64,000 nucleotides of DNA from Aurantiochytrium sp. KH105 (lineage: Eukaryota; Sar; Bigyra; Thraustochytrida; Thraustochytriidae). The translations under genes were made by a program, and so were the position numbers. The notes below the pieces were generated by a model. It saw only the letters and a list, made by a program, of their open reading frames with translations, made no database searches and had not been told where the DNA came from. The stretch lies in contig BGKB01000127.1 in the NCBI GenBank assembly GCA_003116975.1, forward strand, positions 62,001-126,000, given 5' to 3'. Shown here piece by piece: positions 8,742-31,721 of this stretch; position 1 is the first letter of the stretch, and each line of letters begins with the position of its first letter.

Positions 8742-10571
8742 CTATTGCGGAGCACGATACTTCATAATGAGCTCTTCAATAGCCATGGTGAGCCGCTGCA
8801 CGCCCTGGAGAACGCCATTGCGATCCGCAACGTCCGAAGGCGTCGAGTTTGCAAAGTCAATGAAACGAATGGCCGCCTTACCGTTCGCGTGCAAGAACAA
8901 GAGCGAGGTCCCCACAAGCTCGTACCTGCGGAAAAGCCGCGACTCGCTCAGAGCCTCCTGTACCTTAGAAAGCTCATTGACGAACTGCTCCGCCACATCG
9001 AGCGAAAAACCATCCTCGTTGTACAAGTAATGCTCCAGGCCCTCCAGGAATTGAATGCGTGTCTCCACACTACGCGAGTCCGCCTGCGACACGCGATAGT
9101 CGCCATGCACCAAGGCCGTCAGACGGAAACCAAGCTCGCGAGAGGTCGTTGTCGCATCCCGGAACGCAAGGTAGTCGCGCTTGCCGAGCTTGCCGTCCGA
9201 GAGACTCGCAGGACCATCGCGGTCACCAACAAGGGTCTCCCAGATCTCCTCCGCCCGACCTGGAGAAAGCTCCGTCTCAAAGGTCGCATACTTGTTGTAG
9301 TACTCGGACTTGGGCTCGTTCGGGCAGTCCGACCGAAACGAGCGCAGACCGAGCTTGACATCCATGATGGAGACCGCTTCGTTGGCCATCGGATCCCTCG
9401 ACTTTCTACGCACCGACTCTGTAGCGTCAGAAATCACGAGCTCGCGCGGAGAAGTGCTCTCGTCGACACGAATCAACCGCGGCATGACACGTGAAAGACT
9501 GTCTGGCGAAGACGGGTCCCATGCCTTGCGGTAAAAGTCCACCTCCACATCAAATTGCTCCTTCTTGTCCTCGCGCTTGATGATCTCACCGCCCTTGGAC
9601 GAAATGTTCCCGTGCGCGCCCCCGACTTGCGCTGGAGCCGCGTGGTGCGAAGAGGCAAGGCTCAGGCTCGAATTCAGGCAGCCGCGCAGGAACTGCACGC
9701 CGTGCAGGTATCCATCGTCCACGCCGCCGTCTCGAATAGGAAACACGTGTGCAAAGTCAATCATGCGGACGCGAAGCTCCGGGCGCTCTGCCTTGCCGTC
9801 ATACACCACAAAGAGCGAGCTGCCGTACATGCGCCACCTGGCCGTTTCTCGCAACATGGACTCAATCTTGTCCAGCTCCTCCACCAGCTGTCCCATCAGT
9901 CCATAGCGCACAACCTGGCCGTCATCGAAGAATTTTTCGATTGCGTTGGTCATCGAGTCCTCCGTGATGCTCATTGCCCAATCTCGCGACGATTTCCACC
10001 ACTCATCCTTGCTGCGCCGATACACCTTCATGCCCACAATACGGAAGCCGATCTTCTCCTGGGGCGGGTACTTTTTCTTCTCCTTGGCAATCTTTTCGGG
10101 CGAGGCCGTCTCGTCGTACGTCTGCTGGCCCATCTTGAGGTCCAGCACGCACGGGCACTCGAGACCGTACGTCATGTTCTCCAGTTTCAGGTACATGGCG
10201 TCATGCAGTTTCTCCAGCCCGAGGTACTTGGGGATGAAAGCCTTGAGTGGGCTTTCGCTCTCCGACACCTCCTTGTAGAACTCGGCCTCCAACTCCCCGC
10301 GGCTCTTGCCCTTGCCGGGCTGCGCGGGCTGGAACGGCTTGAGAATCGCCCCGTCCCTCACCAAAATGGGCGGGCCCTTATCCTTCTTGCTCCCGTGGCC
10401 GCCCACGGCGTCGAGCGCCGCGGGCATGCTCGCGCCCGCCTGCGCGTCGGCGTGCTCCCTGCGCGCCGCCGCCGCGGCGTGCGCCTCCTCGCGCCGCTTC
10501 TTCACCAGGTACGCGAGCGCGCACGCCCCCGCGGCCACGGCCAGCGCCTTGAGCGCCGCATCGGACGCCAT
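8742..10571 (-). CDS. Tandem inositol polyphosphate kinase (two IPK domains), membrane-anchored
   Basis: A 609-residue protein with two complete-looking inositol polyphosphate kinase (IPMK/IP6K/IP3K superfamily) domains. Domain 1 (about 90-300) has the signature P-x3-D-x-K-x-G at 140-148 (PCVLDLKMG), the SSLF motif at 251-254 and IDFAH at 271-275. Domain 2 (about 336-607) has DVKLG at 404-408 (the signature Pro is Val), TSLLF at 555-559 and IDFAN at 571-575. Such enzymes phosphorylate soluble inositol phosphates with ATP; which member is meant cannot be told here. An Ala/Leu-rich segment (about 5-23) followed by KKRREE suggests an N-terminal membrane anchor facing the cytosol. I chose the ATG at 10571 because the open frame upstream (to 10997) is low-complexity and unlike the family. 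One IPK domain per protein is usual, so the duplication is notable. Confidence 0.88.
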   Translation of the reverse strand: MASDAALKALAVAAGACALAYLVKKRREEAHAAAAARREHADAQAGASMPAALDAVGGHGSKKDKGPPILVRDGAILKPFQPAQPGKGKSRGELEAEFYKEVSESESPLKAFIPKYLGLEKLHDAMYLKLENMTYGLECPCVLDLKMGQQTYDETASPEKIAKEKKKYPPQEKIGFRIVGMKVYRRSKDEWWKSSRDWAMSITEDSMTNAIEKFFDDGQVVRYGLMGQLVEELDKIESMLRETARWRMYGSSLFVVYDGKAERPELRVRMIDFAHVFPIRDGGVDDGYLHGVQFLRGCLNSSLSLASSHHAAPAQVGGAHGNISSKGGEIIKREDKKEQFDVEVDFYRKAWDPSSPDSLSRVMPRLIRVDESTSPRELVISDATESVRRKSRDPMANEAVSIMDVKLGLRSFRSDCPNEPKSEYYNKYATFETELSPGRAEEIWETLVGDRDGPASLSDGKLGKRDYLAFRDATTTSRELGFRLTALVHGDYRVSQADSRSVETRIQFLEGLEHYLYNEDGFSLDVAEQFVNELSKVQEALSESRLFRRYELVGTSLLFLHANGKAAIRFIDFANSTPSDVADRNGVLQGVQRLTMAIEELIMKYRAPQ

Positions 10572-11412: not shown

Positions 11413-12750
11413 CTAATACTCGTCTGGAGGGACGAACGAAGTATTCGCACTGTCGCTCGCGCTTTTGTCGTCGCTAGTCTCCGTGTCGGCCTTGGTCGCA
11501 AGATTTGTTTTCGACTTGTTCTTGGCCATGTAAACGTCCATATTACCGCGCTCAATGACCGTGCCCGATTGTCCGATGAGCTCATAGATACGCTCCGAGG
11601 GCAGTCCTTTCACTTGACGCAACACGGACGAGTCCAAACTGCACAGCCCGCAGGCGACCTCGGTACCGTCGCGACCCGCAATGACGACTGACTCAAAGGC
11701 TGTGAAATTACCCTCTACCGAAACGACGCCCGCCGCGAAAAGCGTATTGCGACCCTGCACAGCCTGTCGCGCGCCATCATCGACGACAATAGTGCCGCGT
11801 CGCTGCAAGCTACGAATCCAGCGCTTGCGCTCACGCGGAGGGTTCTTGCTGCGCTCAAAGGTTGTTCCAAAGTCGAAACGTGACGTGTTGGATGCAGACG
11901 CGCTCGCCTGCGCAGCTTTGGCGCCACCCTTTTTCGAGCCAGACGTCTTTTCCGCCAGCTCTTTTTCCACATACAAAGGTATCCTCGGGCAGTCGTCTGC
12001 GTGCATGATAACCGTGCGCACGCCGAGCGAGGTGGCCAGCGAGGCAGCCGTGATTTTTGCCGCCATCCCGCCAGTGCCCCACTCGGACTCATCTCCCGAT
12101 CCCAATTTGCACATGGCACGAAGTTTGTCAAAGTCGTCGACGAGCTCCAATCGCTTAGCGTTTGGATCCGTACGCGGGTTTGCCGTGTATACGCCGTTCA
12201 CATCAGTCATGAGAAAGACGAGATCCGCTCCAATCATGTTGCTCACCATGCAGGCGAGTTTGTCGTTGTCTGCCTTAATCTCCTGCACGCCGACCGGGTC
12301 GTTCTCGTTCACAATGGGAATTGCGCCCATACGAAAAAGTTCCTCAAAGGTATTGCGCGCGTTCAGGAACTGCACTCTGTCCAAAAAGTTCTCGTACGTG
12401 AGCAGGACCTGTGCGCATTGTAGGCCGAGCGAGGAAAACAGCACATCGTACTTGGCCACGAGATGCACCTGGCCAATGGCAGCCAGCGCCTGCCGCGTCG
12501 ACAGCTCCGAGGGCCGCTCCTTGAAGCCCACACGCGTGCAACCGGCGCCGACAGCGCCCGACGAGACCAGCACCACGTCGTGGCCCTGCGCTCGCAGCTT
12601 CGACAGCACCTCCACCGTCGTTGCCAAGTGCACGAGCGCCAGCTGCGTGGCGCCGCTCGACCCGGACTGCAGCACGCTCGACGTCCCGATCTTGACCACC
12701 ACGCGCAGCTTCCCTTGCGCCGCGCCGCTGCTGCCGCCCGCGCTCGCCAT
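11413..12750 (-). CDS. proB: Glutamate 5-kinase (stand-alone, with PUA domain)
   Basis: A 445-residue enzyme catalysing the first step of proline synthesis, phosphorylating the gamma-carboxyl of glutamate with ATP. The amino-acid-kinase domain starts with VVVKIGTS (about 17-24), followed by VLVSSGAVGAG, the substrate-loop motif NENDPV near 170, MTDVNGVYTANPR and the GTGGMAAKI motif. A C-terminal PUA domain is indicated by KRWIRSLQRRGTIVVDDGA and VKGLPSERI. The last 40 or so residues are a Lys/Asp/Ser-rich tail. Plants and animals fuse this domain to gamma-glutamyl phosphate reductase (P5CS); here the frame ends without a reductase, as in bacteria and yeast, and none lies in the window. A Lys/Ala/Ser-rich insert (about 270-285) separates the kinase from the PUA domain. 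It is divergent with NudC across a 718-bp spacer. Confidence 0.95.
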   Translation of the reverse strand: MASAGGSSGAAQGKLRVVVKIGTSSVLQSGSSGATQLALVHLATTVEVLSKLRAQGHDVVLVSSGAVGAGCTRVGFKERPSELSTRQALAAIGQVHLVAKYDVLFSSLGLQCAQVLLTYENFLDRVQFLNARNTFEELFRMGAIPIVNENDPVGVQEIKADNDKLACMVSNMIGADLVFLMTDVNGVYTANPRTDPNAKRLELVDDFDKLRAMCKLGSGDESEWGTGGMAAKITAASLATSLGVRTVIMHADDCPRIPLYVEKELAEKTSGSKKGGAKAAQASASASNTSRFDFGTTFERSKNPPRERKRWIRSLQRRGTIVVDDGARQAVQGRNTLFAAGVVSVEGNFTAFESVVIAGRDGTEVACGLCSLDSSVLRQVKGLPSERIYELIGQSGTVIERGNMDVYMAKNKSKTNLATKADTETSDDKSASDSANTSFVPPDEY

Positions 12751-21030: not shown

Positions 21031-22524
21031 TCAGGAGCGCAACACGTCCACAACAATGTCTTGGTCGTTGACAAGGAGACGCACGAGCTTTTCCTCCTGG
21101 CGTGGCTCCGCGGAATCGTCATTCACATTCGTGACGAGCACGGTAAAGTCTGGGTTACTCTTTTGCACCAAATCGGCAGCTTCCTTGCCGGACATCGACA
21201 ACAAGCCAAAGAGCGACATCTGCGAAGGAAGTTGAACAGGCGCCAATGGAGAAGGCCCATCGACGGTCTGCAGGTCGGCCAGGTCGCTAGGATCGTAGTC
21301 GCTCTGCTTGGTCGAGGGCGTCTCCTTCTGTTGCTGCGTCGGCGCATTCTTCGGGGGCGCCGAGTCCACGGGGTAGGTGACAACCTTGCTCGAGTCCGAC
21401 GCCGACGAAGACGAGCTCTCCGCGGTCGATGCTGCCGAAGAAGCTGCGTTGGCCGCGGCCTCCGCCACATTTTGGGGCGACATCTGGTTCGCCGAGGCAC
21501 GGAGCTTGGTGAGCATGTGCAATGCTGGATTCGGAGACCGCGCAATATCCTGCGCCGTGACTCCAGCCTGAGAAAAGCCCTTGCGCAGCTGCGTCAGCAT
21601 CTCGTCAGGGTTGGGCGGCTTGGGTGCAGACCGCAGCGTCGTGGCCGAGGGAACGACGGGAGCGACGAAGCTCGCCGCGGACATGACAAGCGAGCCGAGC
21701 CCGCCCACGACTGCATTGAGCGTCTCGGCAGAGGGACCCACCCTGTTTTGCAGCGTGAGCGCATTCTGCACGCGGTCGCGCACAAATTTGCGCGTATCAG
21801 CGTAGCCTTCCGAGTAGTCCGTGAGCATGTAGAGCTCCGAGGCCGCAAAGACGGACCCCACGGCGCCGCTACGCATCTCCCATTCGCGCGAGCCCTCGCT
21901 TTCGTCGGCGGCGCGGCAAATCATGTCCGGGATCTTTTGCAGCTTTTGCAACGTCGTCGGGACATTGTCCGGGTGCAGACCCAGGGCCATGGCCTGCGGC
22001 CAGCTGCGCATGTACGGGACGGTGTGCTCGAGGCGGTTCATGAGCGCCGCGACCACGAGATCCTCACCGCGGAGACTGCTCTTGTTCTCCTGCAGGAACG
22101 ACTCGAGTCGCTCATTGCCCTGGTCCATCCAGTACTCGGCGAGCTCGGCGGGGCCGCGTTCAAAGAGTCCGTGCGTGACGGGCGGGAACCCCGCGTCGGC
22201 GGCGCCCGCGGCGAGCGCGTCCGAGGTCCACCCTCGACGGTTCACGTGCGCCATGGCGGCCTCCATGATCTTCTTCTTCGGGTCATCGACGCGGCCCGGG
22301 CCGCCTGCCTGGCTGCGCGGCGGCTGCGGCGGCGGCTGCGGCGGCGCGGCGCCTCCGCCGGCGCCCGTCGCGTTCTTCTCCGCCGCGCCCTTGGCCGCCG
22401 CGCTCGCCTTGGCCTGCGCCTCGCGGTCCAGGCTCAGGCCGCGCCGCGCGCCGCCTGCGCCGCGCCTCCATGCCGCCGCGGCCGCCGTCTGCGCCGCGAA
22501 CCTCGTCGCGCGCGCGCGCAGCAT
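21031..22524 (-). CDS. COQ9: Ubiquinone biosynthesis protein COQ9 with C-terminal extension
   Basis: A 497-residue mitochondrial matrix protein that binds lipid and presents intermediates to COQ7 in the coenzyme Q complex. I start it at the ATG at 22524 (MLRARATRF), which opens an Arg/Ala-rich, acid-free presequence; an upstream in-frame ATG at 22620 adds compositionally biased residues. The COQ9 core spans about 82-255: HVNRRGW, AAGAADAGFPPVTHGLF, RGPAELAEY, VPYMRSWPQAMAL and the ASELYMLTDYS motif. A long low-complexity Ala/Ser/Pro linker (about 290-430) follows. The last 60 residues (about 437-497; LFGLLSMSGKEAADLV...LVRLLV) resemble the potato inhibitor I fold, which I do not know from other COQ9 proteins. 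It sits head-to-head with a probable complex I assembly factor. Confidence 0.92.
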   Translation of the reverse strand: MLRARATRFAAQTAAAAAWRRGAGGARRGLSLDREAQAKASAAAKGAAEKNATGAGGGAAPPQPPPQPPRSQAGGPGRVDDPKKKIMEAAMAHVNRRGWTSDALAAGAADAGFPPVTHGLFERGPAELAEYWMDQGNERLESFLQENKSSLRGEDLVVAALMNRLEHTVPYMRSWPQAMALGLHPDNVPTTLQKLQKIPDMICRAADESEGSREWEMRSGAVGSVFAASELYMLTDYSEGYADTRKFVRDRVQNALTLQNRVGPSAETLNAVVGGLGSLVMSAASFVAPVVPSATTLRSAPKPPNPDEMLTQLRKGFSQAGVTAQDIARSPNPALHMLTKLRASANQMSPQNVAEAAANAASSAASTAESSSSSASDSSKVVTYPVDSAPPKNAPTQQQKETPSTKQSDYDPSDLADLQTVDGPSPLAPVQLPSQMSLFGLLSMSGKEAADLVQKSNPDFTVLVTNVNDDSAEPRQEEKLVRLLVNDQDIVVDVLRS

Positions 22525-23450
22525 CCTCGCGCCGCGCTCCGCGCTCGCTCGACCTCGCTCGCTCGCTCGCCGGGCTCGTCGCGCCGCGCCTCGTTCGAGC
22601 TCTGCCGCCGGAGAAAGCAAGCGCAGGACGAGACAGCGTTTCTATCTTTCCTGCTCCTTGCGCCTTGCGTCCGCCTTTCATCTGGCGGCATCTCGGGAGC
22701 AGTTCCGACGCTCTCGAAGGCAAGACCGCCGGGACTGCCGGCGAAACGGAGGACGTGGGTGCAGAGCTCGAGAGTTGGCTGGGGGCGGAGTGAAGGGTGA
22801 AGATGTCCGGGAAGGCATTGGGTGCACCTTGAGAAGCCACAGCTTGCATGATCGTAAAGTTATGTCTGGTGCGTGTCAGATGGCTAAACATTCTTAGGTA
22901 GTCGAAAACCTCATGATCAACTGTGAAGCCAAGAGGACTGATGCGGCTCGACGAACAATCTTTCGTAGTTACACTTGAATGTCGTGGGAGATTCCACGAT
23001 GTTTTGAAACGCATGCTCGATTCTAACTTTATGGAAAATTGTAAAACTCGTGCAATACGAAGGCGACCTCGAATGTGGCTCACACTTGAGTCCATCATAC
23101 GAGGGTGTATACTTGTGAGTCAAGATACGTAGAGGATGGTGGCTTCAATCCGCAGAGCATACTTGTTTCTGCGATCGTCAATTGTGACGATCATCATTAC
23201 TTTTCCACCGTGAAATGGCCTGCCATGGCCACTGGCACGCACATTCTGGCACATAAAAAACACTCTCATCATCTCCTGCTCATGAAGATTGCCACAACGC
23301 TTACGACGAATGGAAGAAATCATCGAACGAAGAGAAGAGCACGGAAGAGCCTGCTTTTGCCGTGGCTTATGCCAATGGCTTCTGTGAATAAAACCAAAAA
23401 GCAAGAAAAACCACACGGACACGCTAAGTCACCCGAGCGAGCGAGCAAAG
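22525..23450. other. Divergent spacer between COQ9 and the NDUFAF8-like gene
   Basis: This 926-bp spacer is shared by two mitochondrial genes. The COQ9-proximal half is GC-rich; 22840-23400 is visibly A/T-richer than the surroundings and contains an 8-bp-arm hairpin at 23173-23192. The overlapping short frames are not credible proteins. Confidence 0.5.
23173..23192. promoter_or_regulatory. Inverted repeat in the shared mitochondrial-gene spacer
   Basis: Arms GATCGTCA and TGACGATC are perfect complements separated by ATTG. It lies about 260 bp upstream of the NDUFAF8-like start. The sequence is certain; a regulatory role is only a guess (TGACG is a bZIP-type half-site). Confidence 0.4.
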
Positions 23451-23711
23451 ATGACAACGCCGCGCGGCGCGGGACTACCGGCGGGGAAGACGACTCTGCG
23501 CGCGCTCTCCAGCAGCGCAACGTCCCGGCCTATTGGACAAGGACGTCTGGGGCGCGTCTTCATGGAGATGAGGTCGAGCTGCCGTGACGACATGGCTGCC
23601 TACGCCGCCTGCATCGAGACGGGCATCGAAGACGTGCGAAGAGACAAGTGCGCGGAAGAGTTCAAGGCGCTCAAGGCATGCTACGCGCGAGTCTTGCCCA
23701 GCGTTCCGTAG
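23451..23711 (+). CDS. Twin-CX9C mitochondrial protein, NDUFAF8-like complex I assembly factor
   Basis: An 86-residue protein. After a basic N-terminal part (about 1-35) come two CX9C motifs: C-RDDMAAYAA-C and C-AEEFKALKA-C, about 13 residues apart. Twin CX9C proteins are oxidised by MIA40/Erv1 in the intermembrane space into a helical hairpin. The pattern of Cys, the AAY before the second Cys and the KCAEEFKALKAC block resemble human NDUFAF8 (C17orf89), which with NDUFAF5 acts in complex I assembly. Other short twin-CX9C proteins are possible, so I leave the symbol empty. The start ATG follows an A-rich leader. It is divergent from COQ9 and convergent with the substrate-binding-protein gene (239-bp gap). 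Confidence 0.78.
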   Translation: MTTPRGAGLPAGKTTLRALSSSATSRPIGQGRLGRVFMEMRSSCRDDMAAYAACIETGIEDVRRDKCAEEFKALKACYARVLPSVP

Positions 23712-25228: not shown

Positions 25229-25272
25229 GACCCGTGCAAGGGTCACCGGCGCCGCCGACCCTTGCACGGGTC
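25229..25272. promoter_or_regulatory. Perfect 16-bp inverted repeat
   Basis: Arm GACCCGTGCAAGGGTC at 25229-25244 is exactly complementary to GACCCTTGCACGGGTC at 25257-25272, with a 12-bp GC-rich loop. It is 95 bp upstream of the substrate-binding-protein start. Its core CGTGCAAG/CTTGCACG recurs in the inverted repeats upstream of VPS13. It could bind a dimeric factor or form a cruciform. Confidence 0.6.
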
Positions 25273-25429
25273 GCTGCACGTGCCGCTCTGCAGATACCTA
25301 AACGCAAGGGTTACATTACCTCCCGCGGGGCGCGGCGGGCGGGACGAGGTCTTGTGCTGGCGCGAGCACGCGCCGGCACAAGCTCACTCGCCGTCGGGGC
25401 TGGACTCCTGGCCTTCCCTTTGTTTCCCT

Positions 25430-25470
25430 TTGCTTTGCTTTGCTTTGCTTTGCTGTGCTGTGCTGTGCTG
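25430..25470. repeat. (CTTTG)n/(CTGTG)n pentanucleotide tract
   Basis: Tandem TTTGC units grade into TGTGC units in the leader of the C1-protein gene. Confidence 0.9.
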
Positions 25471-25680
25471 CCGCGCTGGCTGGGTCAAGTCGCGTTAGGA
25501 GCGGAGCTCATCAGCAGAGAGGGTGGAGTTCTGGGCGCAAAACGCAAAACGCAGAACGCAAACGCAAACGCGGTCGAGCGAGCGAGCGAGCGAGCTCGCG
25601 CGAAGCTCGCGCAGCGTCCGCTCTGGGCGCGACCCACACGTGGAAGCGCGAGGGAAAGGCGTACGCAAAGAGAGGGGGAA

Positions 25681-28600
25681 ATGTTGCCCGCCAGCTTGAA
25701 GCGGTCCGTGACCGCCCGGCAGGCCGCGCCGACAAAGGTAGCGCATGACTTTGAGAAACAGCGCTTCTCCACCATGACCAGGTGCTTCGTGTGCGACGAG
25801 ATGATCGAGCACGACGTCTTACGAGGCATCATGGACTACACGACCTCGATTCGCTACGTCTTGGGCGCTAGCAGTCTCGCGGACTACGTGCCCAAAGGCG
25901 ATGGCTGCACGTGCCGCGTCTGTGGCGTCAATGTGCACGAGTCGTGCGCAAGCCAAATTCAGTCCTCGTGCGTAAGAGTAACGCACAACTTTGAGCTGCG
26001 CAGCTGGCCGCCTCTAACAAAGCACTGCTACGCGTGCGGTCTCTCGCTGCAGGGCCTCTTCAATCAGGGCTACCAGTGCACCGAATGCGGCGTCATCTGC
26101 CACGCGCTATGCCGGACCAACGTCAACATTCGGTACTGCGAGGCCGCTCCAGATGTGGACATCTTTGATGGAGATCCCAACAGAGACACACGCATCGAAG
26201 GCGAGGGCGATCTTTACGAGTATGTTGGTGATGATCCGGATCGCGTTGCCGAAATCGACGCCGAGCGGTCTTCGTCCGCCCGATCGGGCGCCTCTGCGGC
26301 ACAGCGAAACAGCTGGCGGTCAAGCGTCCGTCGTGCCGCGGCCGCAGTCACGGGAGGCGCCGCTCGCGGCTCGGGTAGACATCAAGCGAGGCACGAAGAT
26401 GGAGAGCACGCCCCCGCCGCCGGCGCCGCGCCCATTCAGATCCCAAGCTCCCTCAAGGACATGGGCAAGGAGCTGCGCAAGCTTCACACTCAAAGTCAGG
26501 GCATCTCCATGGCAGAAGCCGAGCGGTGGAATCGCGAGCAGGTCCCGCGTCTTCGCGTTTTGAAAAAGGAGCTCACCTCTCACAAGAAGAAACTCAAGGC
26601 TGCGCGCGACAAGGTTTCGGCCAAGGTCGACAAGCGCGGCCGGGCGCGCACCATTCACTATCGTACCTTTGCCAAAAAGCTCATCTCCAAGCACATGAAA
26701 AAGAAAATGAAAAAGGGCGCCATCGATGACACCGTCAATGAGCTCCTCGAGCTCTACTCCATGCACCGCTGCCGAGAGACCGAACTTCTCGACGAACTCG
26801 CGCAAATGCTGCCCCCCGAGGCAGGCCCTGCCATCGAAAAGGAGCGCGAAGAAGGCCCATGCAGACCGAATGGCAAGCTCGAAAGGTCGCTAGAGGACCT
26901 CGACAAGCTGCGCAAGCAGGTGCAAGTCGCCACGCAGTCTCTCGAGGCCGTGCGTCGCGAGCTTTACTTTCCGCGCTGGCGCCACTGGTTTCTGCGCGTT
27001 GGCCTTGAAGGCACTTATGCCGCTCTCGGGGCGCTTTGGCTCGAGCAATTCCAAGGAAGCATTGCTATTCGCTTTGCAATGCTTCCCACATCGGAAAAGA
27101 AGGATGCTAAACTTGTCCCGACCGTGGTGATCGCATTGGGTGGCTATGACACCGAATACGATTTTGACGAAATGGGCACGAGCAATCGCGCAGCTCGCCA
27201 TCGACAAAAGGAAAGCGAGGCGGGCATGTCTCTCGTGGCACGCGTCGAGCAGCTCTCCGTCAGCGGCAGCTCACTTCCCATGTCCATCACGCTCGATCAG
27301 CTCTCGCTCGATCTCGAGTTCTATCTCAACATTGAAATGGAGTATGTGACCTCGCGCAAAAAGAACATCCTCGGCTCGTGGCAACTCAAGCCCAACGCAT
27401 TCTCGCTCAAATTCAAGCGATTCGGTCTCAACTTTAAGGGTGGCTCTGTGAGCGTTCCCGACGCGCTCTTGCGCACCGTCGTGAAAAATCTTCTCGTCAG
27501 TGCCGCAAAACAGTCTGTCAAAGCCGCGCTGCCTCCCGAGTTCGGAGAATATATGCACTTTATGCACAAGCACACGCCGACGAATATGCGTGCTGATGCG
27601 GATGGCGCCAACAACGGCAAGCACGCTGGCCAGACTTCCAATGACCAGCTTCGCTACCATGGGCGTATCGACGTCAACGCAGAGATTGACCTCGAGAGCC
27701 TTGACCATGTCATGGAGAGCTCTGAGGTCAAGCCGCCACCCAAGCCGCGGGGAATCATGTCCGGCGCGATGCGCGGGGCCACGCGGGCCGTCATGGCCGC
27801 AGCCGGTGTCACGTCCGGACCTGCGCGTCACGCTTACAAGGACGAACCCGTGCAGACGCGGGTTGAGCGCGCGCTTGGGCTCGATGCGCATCAAATCGAT
27901 CTCTTCATTCGCGCCCAACAGGAACTCGGACTCACCCACAATGCTCTCTTTCCCGAGGACTCGCTCACCGAGCTGGGTCTCAAGGCCATTTACTCGGTAC
28001 GAGACGACCCATCCGTCACCGCTGAAGCCGCAAATCGCATTGGCCTCCGTTATCTCAACGGAGACCTTTTGTCCACCGAGGTCCCGCTCAAGACTATTAT
28101 TGACATCGTGCAGTATGTGCTCACGTACTTTGGACCCACTGCGCGCAAAAATCCGCACACGCCCCGGATCCTCGCGCTTTGGCAGGGAGCCCTCGACAAG
28201 ACCTTGCGCAAGATGCTGCAGAGCAACTCGTTCCGCGCCCACCATGACGACGAGCCGGCCGGGTCGACACGCTCCATTCGCTCACGATCTACCAACGATG
28301 ATAGCGACCGACGCGTGCGCCGTATCATCATTGCTGACTTTATCGATCGCGTGCTCAAGCTTGCACGACGGCGCATCATTACGCGGATTGAAATGCTGCA
28401 CTGGGACGCGGCCCTTGGCGTTAGCAGCATGCAAAAGGTCGCCCGTGACAAGATGCTTCAAGCCGCTGCGAACTCTCGTGGCGGAAACGCAATGGTCTTC
28501 CAGATGAAGTCGTCCGGACGTGACGAAGTCAATGTCGAAGCCGATGACGGCCTCGATGGCGACGACGACGACGATGATCGAAACACGGGCGCAAATACTA

Positions 28601-29673
28601 ACTCCATGCACCTCGACTCCCTCCGCGGCATGCTCCGTTCGGCGGGCGTGACATCGCATGGCCTCGCCGATGATGAAGACGACGATGACGATGACGAAGA
28701 TTTGGGCGTAGAGGATCTGCTCGAAGGCGTCGAAGACCCTCAGCGCAATGCCTCGTCAATCGAGGAGCTCCCCTTTGGAGAGAAGCAGCGCATCAAAGAA
28801 GCGCAGATTCACGCTCGATTCGACCAGCAGGCGCAATACCTTGACTTTGTTCGACAAAAGCTCTTGCGAGAGATGGTATTTACGGTGGCAGCTTCTGCGG
28901 GCCAGGGCAAGTTCAATCTGGAGATCACTGACGGTGAGCTGGTCGCCCCCGTCGACTTTGCTGTTCTCCTTGGAGGTACTGTCTTCTCCAATCGCTCTCG
29001 CGTCAACAACTGGCCCTGGCGCCGCATGGTCCGCGTTGAAAAGGATGGCCACGTCCATCTCGCAATTGTCCAAATCTTGGACCGTGGTGACGGTCCAGGC
29101 ACCGAGACATATACTGACCCCGACGACGAGGATGGAATTCACCTGCTGCACAGTGGCCTGAGGACCCATTTGCAAAGTGTAGGACACCCGCTTCGCGATA
29201 TCATGCACCTCTCGATTTTGCCCGAGAAGCCCTGCACCTCGTGGTCGGATGCGGGACAGGTTTCCTTTTCCTGGAATGGTGACCGTGACCTACGTTTTAG
29301 CGCGCACATGGATCGATTCCGCGCGCACGGCGGATTACCCACGCTGCACAAGTTTTCAAGCGACATTTTGGATTGGTCTTTGCGGGCTGTCACAGACCCA
29401 CGACTCGAAGAAATTTCTCGCTTTGCTCTTAGTGTACTGATTCGCTACGCAACGCTCAACACCTTTGATGGTGGAATTTGGACAAATTTCCAGATGGAAT
29501 CAACGGAGGACGATCTTTTTCTGCGTGCCTCGATCCCAGATCGCGCCCGCTCCGCTGTCTCGCTCGATTTGCAGCACGACTTTATGGACTTCACCGACGA
29601 CATCTCGCACTTCATCGAGTTCTATCGCACAGACCCTGTCGATCTGGGTAACCTTACGCGCACCGTGAGTTAA
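25681..29673 (+). CDS. Large protein with two N-terminal C1 zinc domains, otherwise uncharacterised
   Basis: A 1330-residue single-exon protein. I start it at the ATG at 25681 (MLPASLKRSV), just before the first zinc domain. Two C1-type (phorbol-ester/diacylglycerol-binding fold) modules follow: H22, C35xxC38, C78xxC81, H86, C89, C97, and H102, C116xxC119, C133xxC136, H141, C144, C153. The first has about 39 residues between the second and third Cys where 13-14 is usual, so it is atypical. Next come a basic helical stretch (about 280-350; RVLKKELTSHKKKLKAARDKV), a beta-rich hydrophobic region (about 430-620; LDQLSLDLEFYLNIEMEYV, then WQLKPNAFSLKFKRFGLNF) that could be a TULIP/HAM1-like lipid-binding fold, acidic runs (about 960-1020) and a conserved-looking C-terminus. 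There is no kinase domain. A membrane-lipid-linked role is inference. Confidence 0.82.
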   Translation: MLPASLKRSVTARQAAPTKVAHDFEKQRFSTMTRCFVCDEMIEHDVLRGIMDYTTSIRYVLGASSLADYVPKGDGCTCRVCGVNVHESCASQIQSSCVRVTHNFELRSWPPLTKHCYACGLSLQGLFNQGYQCTECGVICHALCRTNVNIRYCEAAPDVDIFDGDPNRDTRIEGEGDLYEYVGDDPDRVAEIDAERSSSARSGASAAQRNSWRSSVRRAAAAVTGGAARGSGRHQARHEDGEHAPAAGAAPIQIPSSLKDMGKELRKLHTQSQGISMAEAERWNREQVPRLRVLKKELTSHKKKLKAARDKVSAKVDKRGRARTIHYRTFAKKLISKHMKKKMKKGAIDDTVNELLELYSMHRCRETELLDELAQMLPPEAGPAIEKEREEGPCRPNGKLERSLEDLDKLRKQVQVATQSLEAVRRELYFPRWRHWFLRVGLEGTYAALGALWLEQFQGSIAIRFAMLPTSEKKDAKLVPTVVIALGGYDTEYDFDEMGTSNRAARHRQKESEAGMSLVARVEQLSVSGSSLPMSITLDQLSLDLEFYLNIEMEYVTSRKKNILGSWQLKPNAFSLKFKRFGLNFKGGSVSVPDALLRTVVKNLLVSAAKQSVKAALPPEFGEYMHFMHKHTPTNMRADADGANNGKHAGQTSNDQLRYHGRIDVNAEIDLESLDHVMESSEVKPPPKPRGIMSGAMRGATRAVMAAAGVTSGPARHAYKDEPVQTRVERALGLDAHQIDLFIRAQQELGLTHNALFPEDSLTELGLKAIYSVRDDPSVTAEAANRIGLRYLNGDLLSTEVPLKTIIDIVQYVLTYFGPTARKNPHTPRILALWQGALDKTLRKMLQSNSFRAHHDDEPAGSTRSIRSRSTNDDSDRRVRRIIIADFIDRVLKLARRRIITRIEMLHWDAALGVSSMQKVARDKMLQAAANSRGGNAMVFQMKSSGRDEVNVEADDGLDGDDDDDDRNTGANTNSMHLDSLRGMLRSAGVTSHGLADDEDDDDDDEDLGVEDLLEGVEDPQRNASSIEELPFGEKQRIKEAQIHARFDQQAQYLDFVRQKLLREMVFTVAASAGQGKFNLEITDGELVAPVDFAVLLGGTVFSNRSRVNNWPWRRMVRVEKDGHVHLAIVQILDRGDGPGTETYTDPDDEDGIHLLHSGLRTHLQSVGHPLRDIMHLSILPEKPCTSWSDAGQVSFSWNGDRDLRFSAHMDRFRAHGGLPTLHKFSSDILDWSLRAVTDPRLEEISRFALSVLIRYATLNTFDGGIWTNFQMESTEDDLFLRASIPDRARSAVSLDLQHDFMDFTDDISHFIEFYRTDPVDLGNLTRTVS

Positions 29674-29927: not shown

Positions 29928-31721
29928 CTACCTTCCAGTCTTTTTCAGATATTGCAATTTCGCAACGATGCGTGCCGCGCCTTCCGGCCCAGCGGCGACC
30001 TCGTACTTGAGTGTCAGCTCGTCCTTGGAGCTCTCGAGACTCCCGCTGCCAGCGAGTCCTTCCCCCGGGGCTTTCCAGCGGATCTCCACACAGCGAGCAT
30101 CGTCAGGGTCAACGCGGAAACTCTTGACGTCGGCAATGTCGCGCTCAGCACGCTTAACGGTATCCTTGGAAAGCATGTTCTTGCCGAGATCCTTGTCCTG
30201 CTTTTTGTTGTACACCTTTTGATGATCGATGCCAAGAACGCGACGCTGTCGCTTGCCCCACTTGTTCGTCTTGATGACGTCCCACTCTTCATAGTGGCGG
30301 GCCGTTTGATCATTAAAGAGAACATTTTCAGGATTGAAGCGGTGCGGGGCTGGTCGGCGCGCAGGATTGACGGCTTCTGTGGCATCATCGTCGTCGTCAT
30401 GGATGGCAGCCGAGCTTCCGCGGTCGCGATGGTGAAAGTCCGGCTCGATTCGATCGCTCACAGAATCCTGCGATGGTGCGTCGGCGTACTGACGGCGCGA
30501 GAGCTCGAGGTGGCGAATGTTGGCTGCGTAAAGGTCTGTTTTCATACCAATCTGACAGGATGCGAGGCCGAGGGCTGCTCGCTCCTCTTCAGATACGGTA
30601 AAGAGGTATTCCTCCGTAAAAAGTGGTAATCGCTGCTTTGTTTGAATGATGCGAAGCACCTCGACTGCAGTCATGCCTGGAGTGCTCTTGATCGAGGTCT
30701 GGAAGCCATTTTCCGGAAGCGTGATTTTGACCAGCCGAGCGCTCTGCTTGTTGAGGAGCTCATCGACCTTGTCAAAGGCCCCAGGTTCAGACGCATCCCC
30801 TGTCTCTTGCGCGTCTGGCAGATTGTCGAGATCGACGTCGACGCCAGCTTTGGGGCAAATGCAAAACTCTGGCTCATCACCATCCCCAAAGTTTTCAACG
30901 TCCATATCTCCATCGCATGCGGGGAGATCGAGTTCCGGCAAGCCATCCTCATCGTGCATCCGGAGCTCATACTTGCTCGCGTCGGGGTAAAGGCGGGCAT
31001 TGCGACCGCCTCCAGCACGCCGGTCTTCGTCGAGCAGAGCTTGAATTACGTCCGAGACCTTCGCATGGAGTGGAACCGTGAGGTGAACCGGCGTCAGATC
31101 TGGCAGGTACACGAGCACCGGGCGGCCAGCAGCACCGGCCGCACGATCGACGTTGCGCGTTGCGCCAGCGCCATTTGCGCCGCCAAAGATGCTCGAGAGA
31201 CCACTTTTGGATACGATGTCACCGCCGTTCGTTTCACCAGAGGGCGCGTGGTTTCCTTCCTCTTCGACGGGGACAACGTCAAAGTGAATCTCTGTCGCCG
31301 TCTCATGGTCATGGTCGGCGCGTTCGGTTTGTGCGCGCCGCAAGACACTTTTGTTTCCTCGTTCACGCCAGGTTGTGAAAGAGAGCTCGCTCTCGCTGTC
31401 ATCCCGTAGGTCGTCGTCGTCTTCGAGCGTAAAGGTGTGATCAGGCGGAGAAGACGCAAAGAGTCTGGCCACGACAGGATCCGACCCAAAGAGTCCTCCT
31501 CGCTTCTGGCCAGAATCAACGCCCGAAGGGTTCACAGAGACTCTTGAGGATTGTCCGCGTTTGAGTGTGGACGCTCTATTTTGGACTTTGGTGCTGTCCG
31601 GGCCCTCGGACACGGACAGGGCGCTCGGGTTGTGGAGCTCGGTTGCTGCCAAGGTCAACATGCGCTCCGACCGCACGAGGCTAACCTTGTCTTCTAACTC
31701 GGCAACCTCAGAGAAGTGCAT
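29928..31721 (-). CDS. SIN1: TORC2 subunit SIN1/AVO1
   Basis: A 597-residue single-exon scaffold of target-of-rapamycin complex 2; in other organisms it recruits AGC kinases and links the complex to membranes. The family's three domains appear in order. The CRIM domain (about 200-288) has VLVYLPDLTPVHLTV, then YELRMHDEDGLPELDLPACD. A Ras-binding-like ubiquitin fold spans about 326-378 (ARLVKITLPENGF, then LPLFTEEYLFTV). A PH domain (about 474-595) contains HYEEWDVIKTNKWGKRQRRVLGID and ends KYEVAAGPEGAARIVAKLQYL. The N-terminal 190 residues are Ser/Asp-rich and likely disordered. The order and motif matches make the call firm despite low identity. Plants lack SIN1, so its presence fits a heterotrophic protist with TORC2. 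Confidence 0.88.
   Translation of the reverse strand: MHFSEVAELEDKVSLVRSERMLTLAATELHNPSALSVSEGPDSTKVQNRASTLKRGQSSRVSVNPSGVDSGQKRGGLFGSDPVVARLFASSPPDHTFTLEDDDDLRDDSESELSFTTWRERGNKSVLRRAQTERADHDHETATEIHFDVVPVEEEGNHAPSGETNGGDIVSKSGLSSIFGGANGAGATRNVDRAAGAAGRPVLVYLPDLTPVHLTVPLHAKVSDVIQALLDEDRRAGGGRNARLYPDASKYELRMHDEDGLPELDLPACDGDMDVENFGDGDEPEFCICPKAGVDVDLDNLPDAQETGDASEPGAFDKVDELLNKQSARLVKITLPENGFQTSIKSTPGMTAVEVLRIIQTKQRLPLFTEEYLFTVSEEERAALGLASCQIGMKTDLYAANIRHLELSRRQYADAPSQDSVSDRIEPDFHHRDRGSSAAIHDDDDDATEAVNPARRPAPHRFNPENVLFNDQTARHYEEWDVIKTNKWGKRQRRVLGIDHQKVYNKKQDKDLGKNMLSKDTVKRAERDIADVKSFRVDPDDARCVEIRWKAPGEGLAGSGSLESSKDELTLKYEVAAGPEGAARIVAKLQYLKKTGR

Follow-up and report, generated by a model that had tools for sequence, protein, structure and literature searches.

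An IPMK-like domain and a candidate IP3-3-kinase-like domain in one double inositol polyphosphate kinase chain

The minus strand of the window, as the whole analyzed stretch of 64,000 nucleotides is called here, encodes a chain with two successive inositol polyphosphate kinase (IPK) domains. The N-terminal one (domain 1) resembles IPMK and the C-terminal one (domain 2) an IP3-3-kinase. We lean, by a modest degree, toward reading the chain as a natural fusion of these two kinases, which would carry IP3 to InsP5 on one chain and thereby couple the end of a signal to synthesis.

Architecture of the double-IPK chain

The gene occupies positions 8742–10571 of the minus strand, on which all parts of the chain described below also lie. 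It is one unbroken frame of 609 codons, running from the ATG at 10571 to the TAG stop at 8742–8744, and forms a complete CDS for 609 amino acids that does not require an intron and contains no internal stop or frameshift. As judged from the open frame, the chain reads as one CDS spanning both IPK domains. Domain 1, an IPMK-like kinase, comprises residues 71–300 (9672–10361, with the Pfam IPK match at 9678–10193), and domain 2, IP3-3-kinase-like, comprises residues 329–609 (8745–9587, with the Pfam IPK match at 8778–9371). The linker that joins them, residues 301–328 (9588–9671), is devoid of Met. Indeed, no in-frame Met is found between residues 270 and 363, so that a separate domain 2 protein starting from a Met of its own would lose the ATP lysine K332.

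Two IPK domains in one chain had been proposed in a preliminary description of this DNA, and the Pfam profile search (IPK, PF03770) bears this out with two matches, both far over the cut-off (gathering score) of 22.2 bits. When the halves were scanned apart, residues 1–300 scored 162.3 bits (E = 1.6e-47) and residues 315–609 scored 68.3 bits (E = 1.1e-18); a six-frame scan of the genome likewise returned two separate IPK matches in the chain, with 164.0 and 68.7 bits. The landmarks listed in the preliminary description are all in place. D-x-K-x-G occurs as DLKMG 144–148 (10128–10142), which holds the catalytic Asp and Lys of domain 1, and as DVKLG 404–408 (9348–9362), which by alignment holds the equivalents of ITPKA D262 and K264; (S/T)SL(L/F) occurs as SSLF 251–254 and TSLL 555–558 (8898–8909); and IDF is found at 271–273 and 571–573, forming part of IDFA 271–274 (9750–9761) in domain 1 and IDFA 571–574 (8850–8861) in domain 2. 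The Asp of each IDFA, D572 in the case of domain 2, is presumably metal-binding, as in the family at large. A third D-x-K-x-G, DGKLG 459–463, is a chance match. Set against the family motifs PxxxDxKxG, SLL, and IDF, as they are listed in an excerpt of PMC11237472, domain 1 possesses PxxxDxKxG and IDF with SLF instead of SLL, and domain 2 possesses DxKxG, SLL, and IDF with the Pro absent. PxxxDxKxG is found once in the chain, at 140–148, in agreement with the earlier remark that domain 2 lacks the signature Pro. This loss had been taken as a possible sign of a different preference; the loss itself holds, but the enlarged substrate lobe described below is the more telling difference.

Ahead of domain 1, residues 5–23 (10503–10559) form a weak hydrophobic segment, a possible signal anchor by the Kyte-Doolittle scale, with the basic flank KKRREE at residues 24–29 (10485–10502). 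The segment is short and Ala-rich. Its best 19-residue Kyte-Doolittle mean is 1.93, at residues 5–23, and its insertion-energy sum is marginal at about +2 kcal/mol over 17–19 residues, unweighted. Of the membrane anchor suggested earlier, the hydrophobic segment and KKRREE are thus present, but hydrophobicity and insertion energy are marginal. An N-terminal membrane anchor of the double-IPK chain is possible and weakly supported, and the segment would be equally compatible with a weak signal anchor or a soluble helix.

Domain 1

A search of all PDB chains with domain 1 gave 21 matches at E up to 10; human IPMK comes first with 141 bits, ahead of Entamoeba IP6K (74 bits) and ITPKA (41 bits). 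In the trees, domain 1 groups with HsIPMK with a support of 63/56 in the full set and 84/87 in the reduced set. By these comparisons, domain 1 is IPMK-like.

Domain 2: scores and trees

The same search with domain 2 gave 52 bits for ITPKA and 17 bits for IPMK, and its nine matches at E up to 10 are all ITPKA/B/C or human IPMK constructs. In a profile comparison, domain 2 reached E = 5.7e-11 versus two IP3Ks and 3.3e-7 versus three IPMK-type rows. It groups with ITPKA/B with a support of 97/96 in the 13-row tree and 96/95 in the 9-row tree, from which four rows were omitted. The same grouping appears in all eight alignment/trimming variants built on 10 rows (bootstrap 90–95), of which six are distinct, the MAFFT auto result being identical to that of L-INS-i. 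These trees contain few reference rows, HsIP6K1 among them, and the 60%-filled column filter drops from them the lobe-insert columns, which are present in four of 13 or three of 10 rows. The branch of domain 2 is long, at 2.35 in the 13-row tree.

In the AU test, applied to groupings that were partly picked after inspection of the trees, a clade of domain 1 and domain 2 is rejected (p = 0.021), with p values of 0.028–0.058 among the variants and values below 0.05 in seven of the eight (five of six distinct). The test also rejects that domain 2 belongs with HsIPMK and domain 1 (p = 0.031) or with the IP6K group (p = 0.033). For ITPK with HsIPMK to the exclusion of domain 2, the p value of 0.051 lies just above the threshold, and domain 2 with ScArg82 yields p values of 0.046–0.099 across the variants, with rejection at 0.05 in two of eight (two of six distinct), so that an origin close to the fungal IPMK is not firmly rejected. 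Among the families compared, which form a small reference set of IPKs with thin protist sampling, domain 2 is in its sequence closest to the animal IP3 3-kinase.

Domain 2: substrate lobe and catalytic residues

The enlarged substrate (IP) lobe of domain 2 extends over residues 409–480 (9132–9347), as found by comparing loop lengths. Lobe length, taken in 10 sequences as the span from DxKxG to the next conserved Gly, amounts to 72 residues in domain 2; 62 in ITPKA and ITPKB; 28 in Arg82, AtIPK2alpha, EhIP6K, HsIP6K1, and the genome's other IPK; and 26, the shortest, in domain 1 and human IPMK. For the human IP3K, a substrate lobe of four helices versus one in IPMK has been described and tied to strict versus loose specificity (PMC10876669), and elsewhere the lobe is described as two extra helices (PMC6232094); both statements are taken from excerpts of these papers. 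The lobe of domain 2 is IP3K-like in length, with a sequence homology that is not demonstrable by free alignment: in free local alignment, 2105 of 5000 shuffles score as well as the actual pair for the ITPKA lobe, and 3158 of 5000 for the ITPKB lobe. When anchored on the next motif, its last 17 residues are similar to those of ITPKA (p = 0.0001), yeast Arg82 (p = 0.0002), and Entamoeba IP6K (p = 0.001), as is to be expected if they form a helix that the whole family has. Ahead of SLL, domain 2 and the two ITPKs alone have three to four additional residues (four of 13 rows, versus the other nine), and the longer C-terminal loop of ITPK is absent from domain 2 in the alignment. AlphaFold2 with single-sequence input gave a pLDDT of 38.5 for domain 2 alone and 35.8 for domain 1 alone. 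Since the value is low even for domain 1, which has a solved relative of about 37% identity, the single-sequence input is its most likely cause.

The alignments place ITPKA K209, D262, K264, K312, Y315, R319, and D416 at K332, D404, K406, K464, Y467, R471, and D572 of the chain, respectively. Herein, K332 (9576–9578) is the ATP lysine, and the equivalents of K312, Y315, and R319 lie in KRDYLAFR 464–471 (9159–9182); the ITPKA numbering of R319, K336, and D416 is our own count along the ITPKA sequence. Two residues are replaced, K336 by V488 and K419 by N575. K291 maybe corresponds to K427, where the alignment is uncertain, and S197 falls within a gapped stretch. Mutated ITPKA forms have been reported with no activity for K209Q, K291Q, and K312Q and with residual activities of 10% for Y315F, 15% for D262N, 44% for S197A, and 46% for both K264Q and K419Q, as given in an excerpt of PMC8292763. 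Of these eight mutated positions, five are kept in domain 2 (K209, D262, K264, K312, and Y315), K419 is replaced, and S197 and K291 are unplaceable. Domain 2 is, hence, likely to be active, with phosphate contacts that would not be identical to those of ITPKA. Nematode and Arabidopsis forms of the IP3 3-kinase without the calmodulin-binding segment, which otherwise lies N-terminal to the kinase domain, are described in an excerpt of PMC9694693.

Second copy and selection

The window copy lies on contig C127, and the six-frame Pfam scan of the genome found a further copy of the double-IPK gene on C142. The region C142:70126-97900 is collinear with window positions 1–29093, with order and orientation kept, in four blocks that are 87.7–95.8% identical; for window positions 22337–23571 (~1.2 kb), a C142 counterpart is absent among the matches listed. 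Because order and orientation match the window, the C142 copy looks like a second haplotype, and it probably is the other haplotype. Upstream of the gene, the two copies diverge strongly and with gaps; from the ATG onward, divergence is low and the 1830 coding bases align without a gap, and after the stop the gaps resume. Between them, 22 residues differ. Over the whole chain, the dN/dS ratio is 0.205, with values of 0.226 in domain 1 and 0.189 in domain 2; both halves are therefore constrained, and purifying selection acts on both domains.

Within the coding region, the first 70 codons (10362–10571) are identical in both copies, with no change over 54 silent sites, in contrast to a dS of 0.11 in domain 1 and 0.09 in domain 2 and to a highly diverged 5' flank.

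The preliminary description had held that both domains could be active, perhaps on successive substrates. With the catalytic residues kept, the Pfam matches, and selection on both domains, both are probably active, and these same observations lend support to the idea that they perhaps act on successive substrates. The differing subfamily affinities, a point absent from that description, give the latter idea a concrete form.

Inositol-phosphate genes in the genome

The six-frame scan with Pfam IPK found six places in the genome: C127 and C142 carry the double-IPK gene, with two matches on either contig, and C24 and C112 carry the only further IPK gene detected. IPPK and PPIP5K are each found at two places, PI-PLC at six places that pair up as three, and an N-terminal domain of the IP3-receptor/ryanodine-receptor type at two places (C30:478355-478909 and C140:20482-21036), within an open frame of 3331 residues; the MIR match of this IP3-receptor relative is below the cut-off. 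ITPK was not found in the genome with two models, which gave no match in the control genomes either. In the archaeal control genome of Methanosarcina acetivorans, a Pfam IPK match lies over the cut-off. The gene pairs would represent two haplotypes, with collinearity established for the window region alone. Hondaea fermentalgiana is a thraustochytrid. For this species, two IPK, one IPPK, no ITPK1, and one PPIP5K are counted in an excerpt of PMC8024741, a pattern that the present counts would match if the pairs are haplotypes.

In the other IPK gene (minus strand; L002:1459-3609 and L003:1459-3687, on C24 and C112), a branch-1 histidine phosphatase is joined to an IPK domain. The L002 protein matches PF00300 with 117.7 bits at residues 76–257 and PF03770 with 161.1 bits. 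In the tree, the IPK part is a neighbor of human IP6K1 (84/83), and its score is 44 bits for Entamoeba IP6K versus 41 for IPMK. The gene is possibly a kinase/phosphatase fusion, built unlike PPIP5K; such a protein was not found among the few papers that a literature search listed.

Next door to the double-IPK gene, the minus strand encodes an amino acid kinase with PUA (11413–12750), which we take to be a glutamate 5-kinase-like architecture. Further along the window, a large frame on the plus strand (25234–29673) has two C1 (diacylglycerol-binding) matches, and a minus-strand frame (29928–31721) has a Sin1 PH match that is sub-threshold at 25.7 bits versus a cut-off of 27.

Proposed mechanism and alternative readings

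In the proposed mechanism, PI-PLC would produce Ins(1,4,5)P3, and domain 2 would add the 3-phosphate to form Ins(1,3,4,5)P4, ending the calcium-releasing signal. The phosphate(s) still missing from Ins(1,3,4,5,6)P5 would be added by domain 1, and from this product IPPK would make InsP6, followed by the IP6K-like and PPIP5K enzymes. A single chain would in this manner couple the shut-off of the IP3 signal to the synthesis of higher inositol phosphates. The enzymology herein is borrowed from the family: that the domains are active, the positions that they phosphorylate, a hand-over of product, and a location at the membrane are predictions, built on the two IPK domains with their differing subfamily affinities, the kept catalytic residues, the selection on both, and the other pathway genes of the genome.

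The chain could instead be a double multikinase, in which domain 2 is a diverged IPMK-type enzyme with an independently enlarged lobe. This reading, which we regard as unlikely yet arguable, draws on a lobe sequence that is not significantly IP3K-like and a lobe end that also fits yeast Arg82, on the long branch of domain 2, on its grouping with ScArg82 being unrejected in six of eight variants (four of six distinct), and on the animal-only view of IP3-3K expressed in an excerpt of PMC8024741. It is at odds with ITPKA/B being nearest in every tree and well ahead in the PDB scores, with the longer stretch before SLL that is common to domain 2 and the ITPKs, and with the rejected grouping of domain 2, HsIPMK, and domain 1 (p = 0.031). 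That domain 2 serves to regulate domain 1 as a module that binds inositol phosphates, with weak activity or none of its own, appears improbable: the equivalents of the ATP Lys, DxK, K312, Y315, and the metal Asp are kept in both copies, and its dN/dS is 0.19, although the signature Pro and the equivalents of K336 and K419 are lost and the Pfam score of domain 2 is lower than that of domain 1.

Very little room is left for a tandem duplication within the chain, whereby a single IPK domain would have given rise to two that do the same job. BLASTP does align domain 1 with domain 2 at 40% over 72 residues (E = 6e-8), as expected of any two IPK domains, but their joint clade falls in the AU test (p = 0.021, and below 0.05 in all but one variant), and each domain matches a different subfamily; the duplication was rejected on these two grounds. 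A gene-model artefact, with a pair of genes misread as a single one, is hardly credible and was rejected as well, given an open frame in both copies without internal indels and the lack of a Met ahead of K332.

Significance and comparison with known systems

Each domain is, by its sequence, of a known kind. A double-IPK protein was not found in the open-licence literature, in titles and abstract openings, among the matches listed, and no relatives were confirmed in viral contigs (searched with domain 1, domain 2, and two alignments) or in genome contigs (one alignment). It is a tentative proposal, to which we give slightly less weight than to its opposite, that an IP3-3-kinase-type domain occurs here outside animals, joined covalently to IPMK and beside PI-PLC and an IP3-receptor relative, such that IP3 shut-off and InsP5 synthesis form a coupled two-step reaction on one chain. 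If true, the IP3K subfamily predates animals or moved between lineages. Excerpts of the literature differ in this regard: the origin of IP3-3K is put late, in animals (PMC8024741), and PMC11000326 restates this view and argues for an older origin, with plant and fungal IPMKs counted as IP3Ks. In further excerpts, the ITPK matches of two oomycete species are weak and assigned to IPMK (PMC9694693), and Dictyostelium is listed with two IPKs that have no assigned yeast or mammalian counterpart (PMC8885430). If the genome is that of a labyrinthulomycete, an IP3K-like/IPMK fusion beside PLC and an IP3-receptor relative would test the animal-late view of IP3-3K. With ITPK not detected, IP3 would likely reach InsP5/6 by way of the fusion, which would also offer a ready-made system for questions of substrate hand-over.

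Among known systems, IPMK/Ipk2/Arg82 is the counterpart of domain 1, which is 37–38% identical to human IPMK and has the same 26-residue substrate loop, PxxxDxKxG, SSL, and IDFAH; the difference is that the IPMK-like domain makes up half a chain here, with a possible N-terminal anchor. ITPKA/B/C provide the best PDB matches of domain 2, and ITPKA/B are its tree neighbors, sharing with it the long lobe and the catalytic and several IP3-site residues. However, domain 2 is only ~26% identical to ITPKA, is fused to an IPMK domain, and has a short C-terminal loop. PPIP5K/Vip1 is also an inositol-phosphate enzyme with two catalytic domains per chain, but these are, according to excerpts of the respective papers, an ATP-grasp kinase (PMC10897400) and a histidine phosphatase (PMC8024741) as opposed to the two IPK folds of the chain described here.
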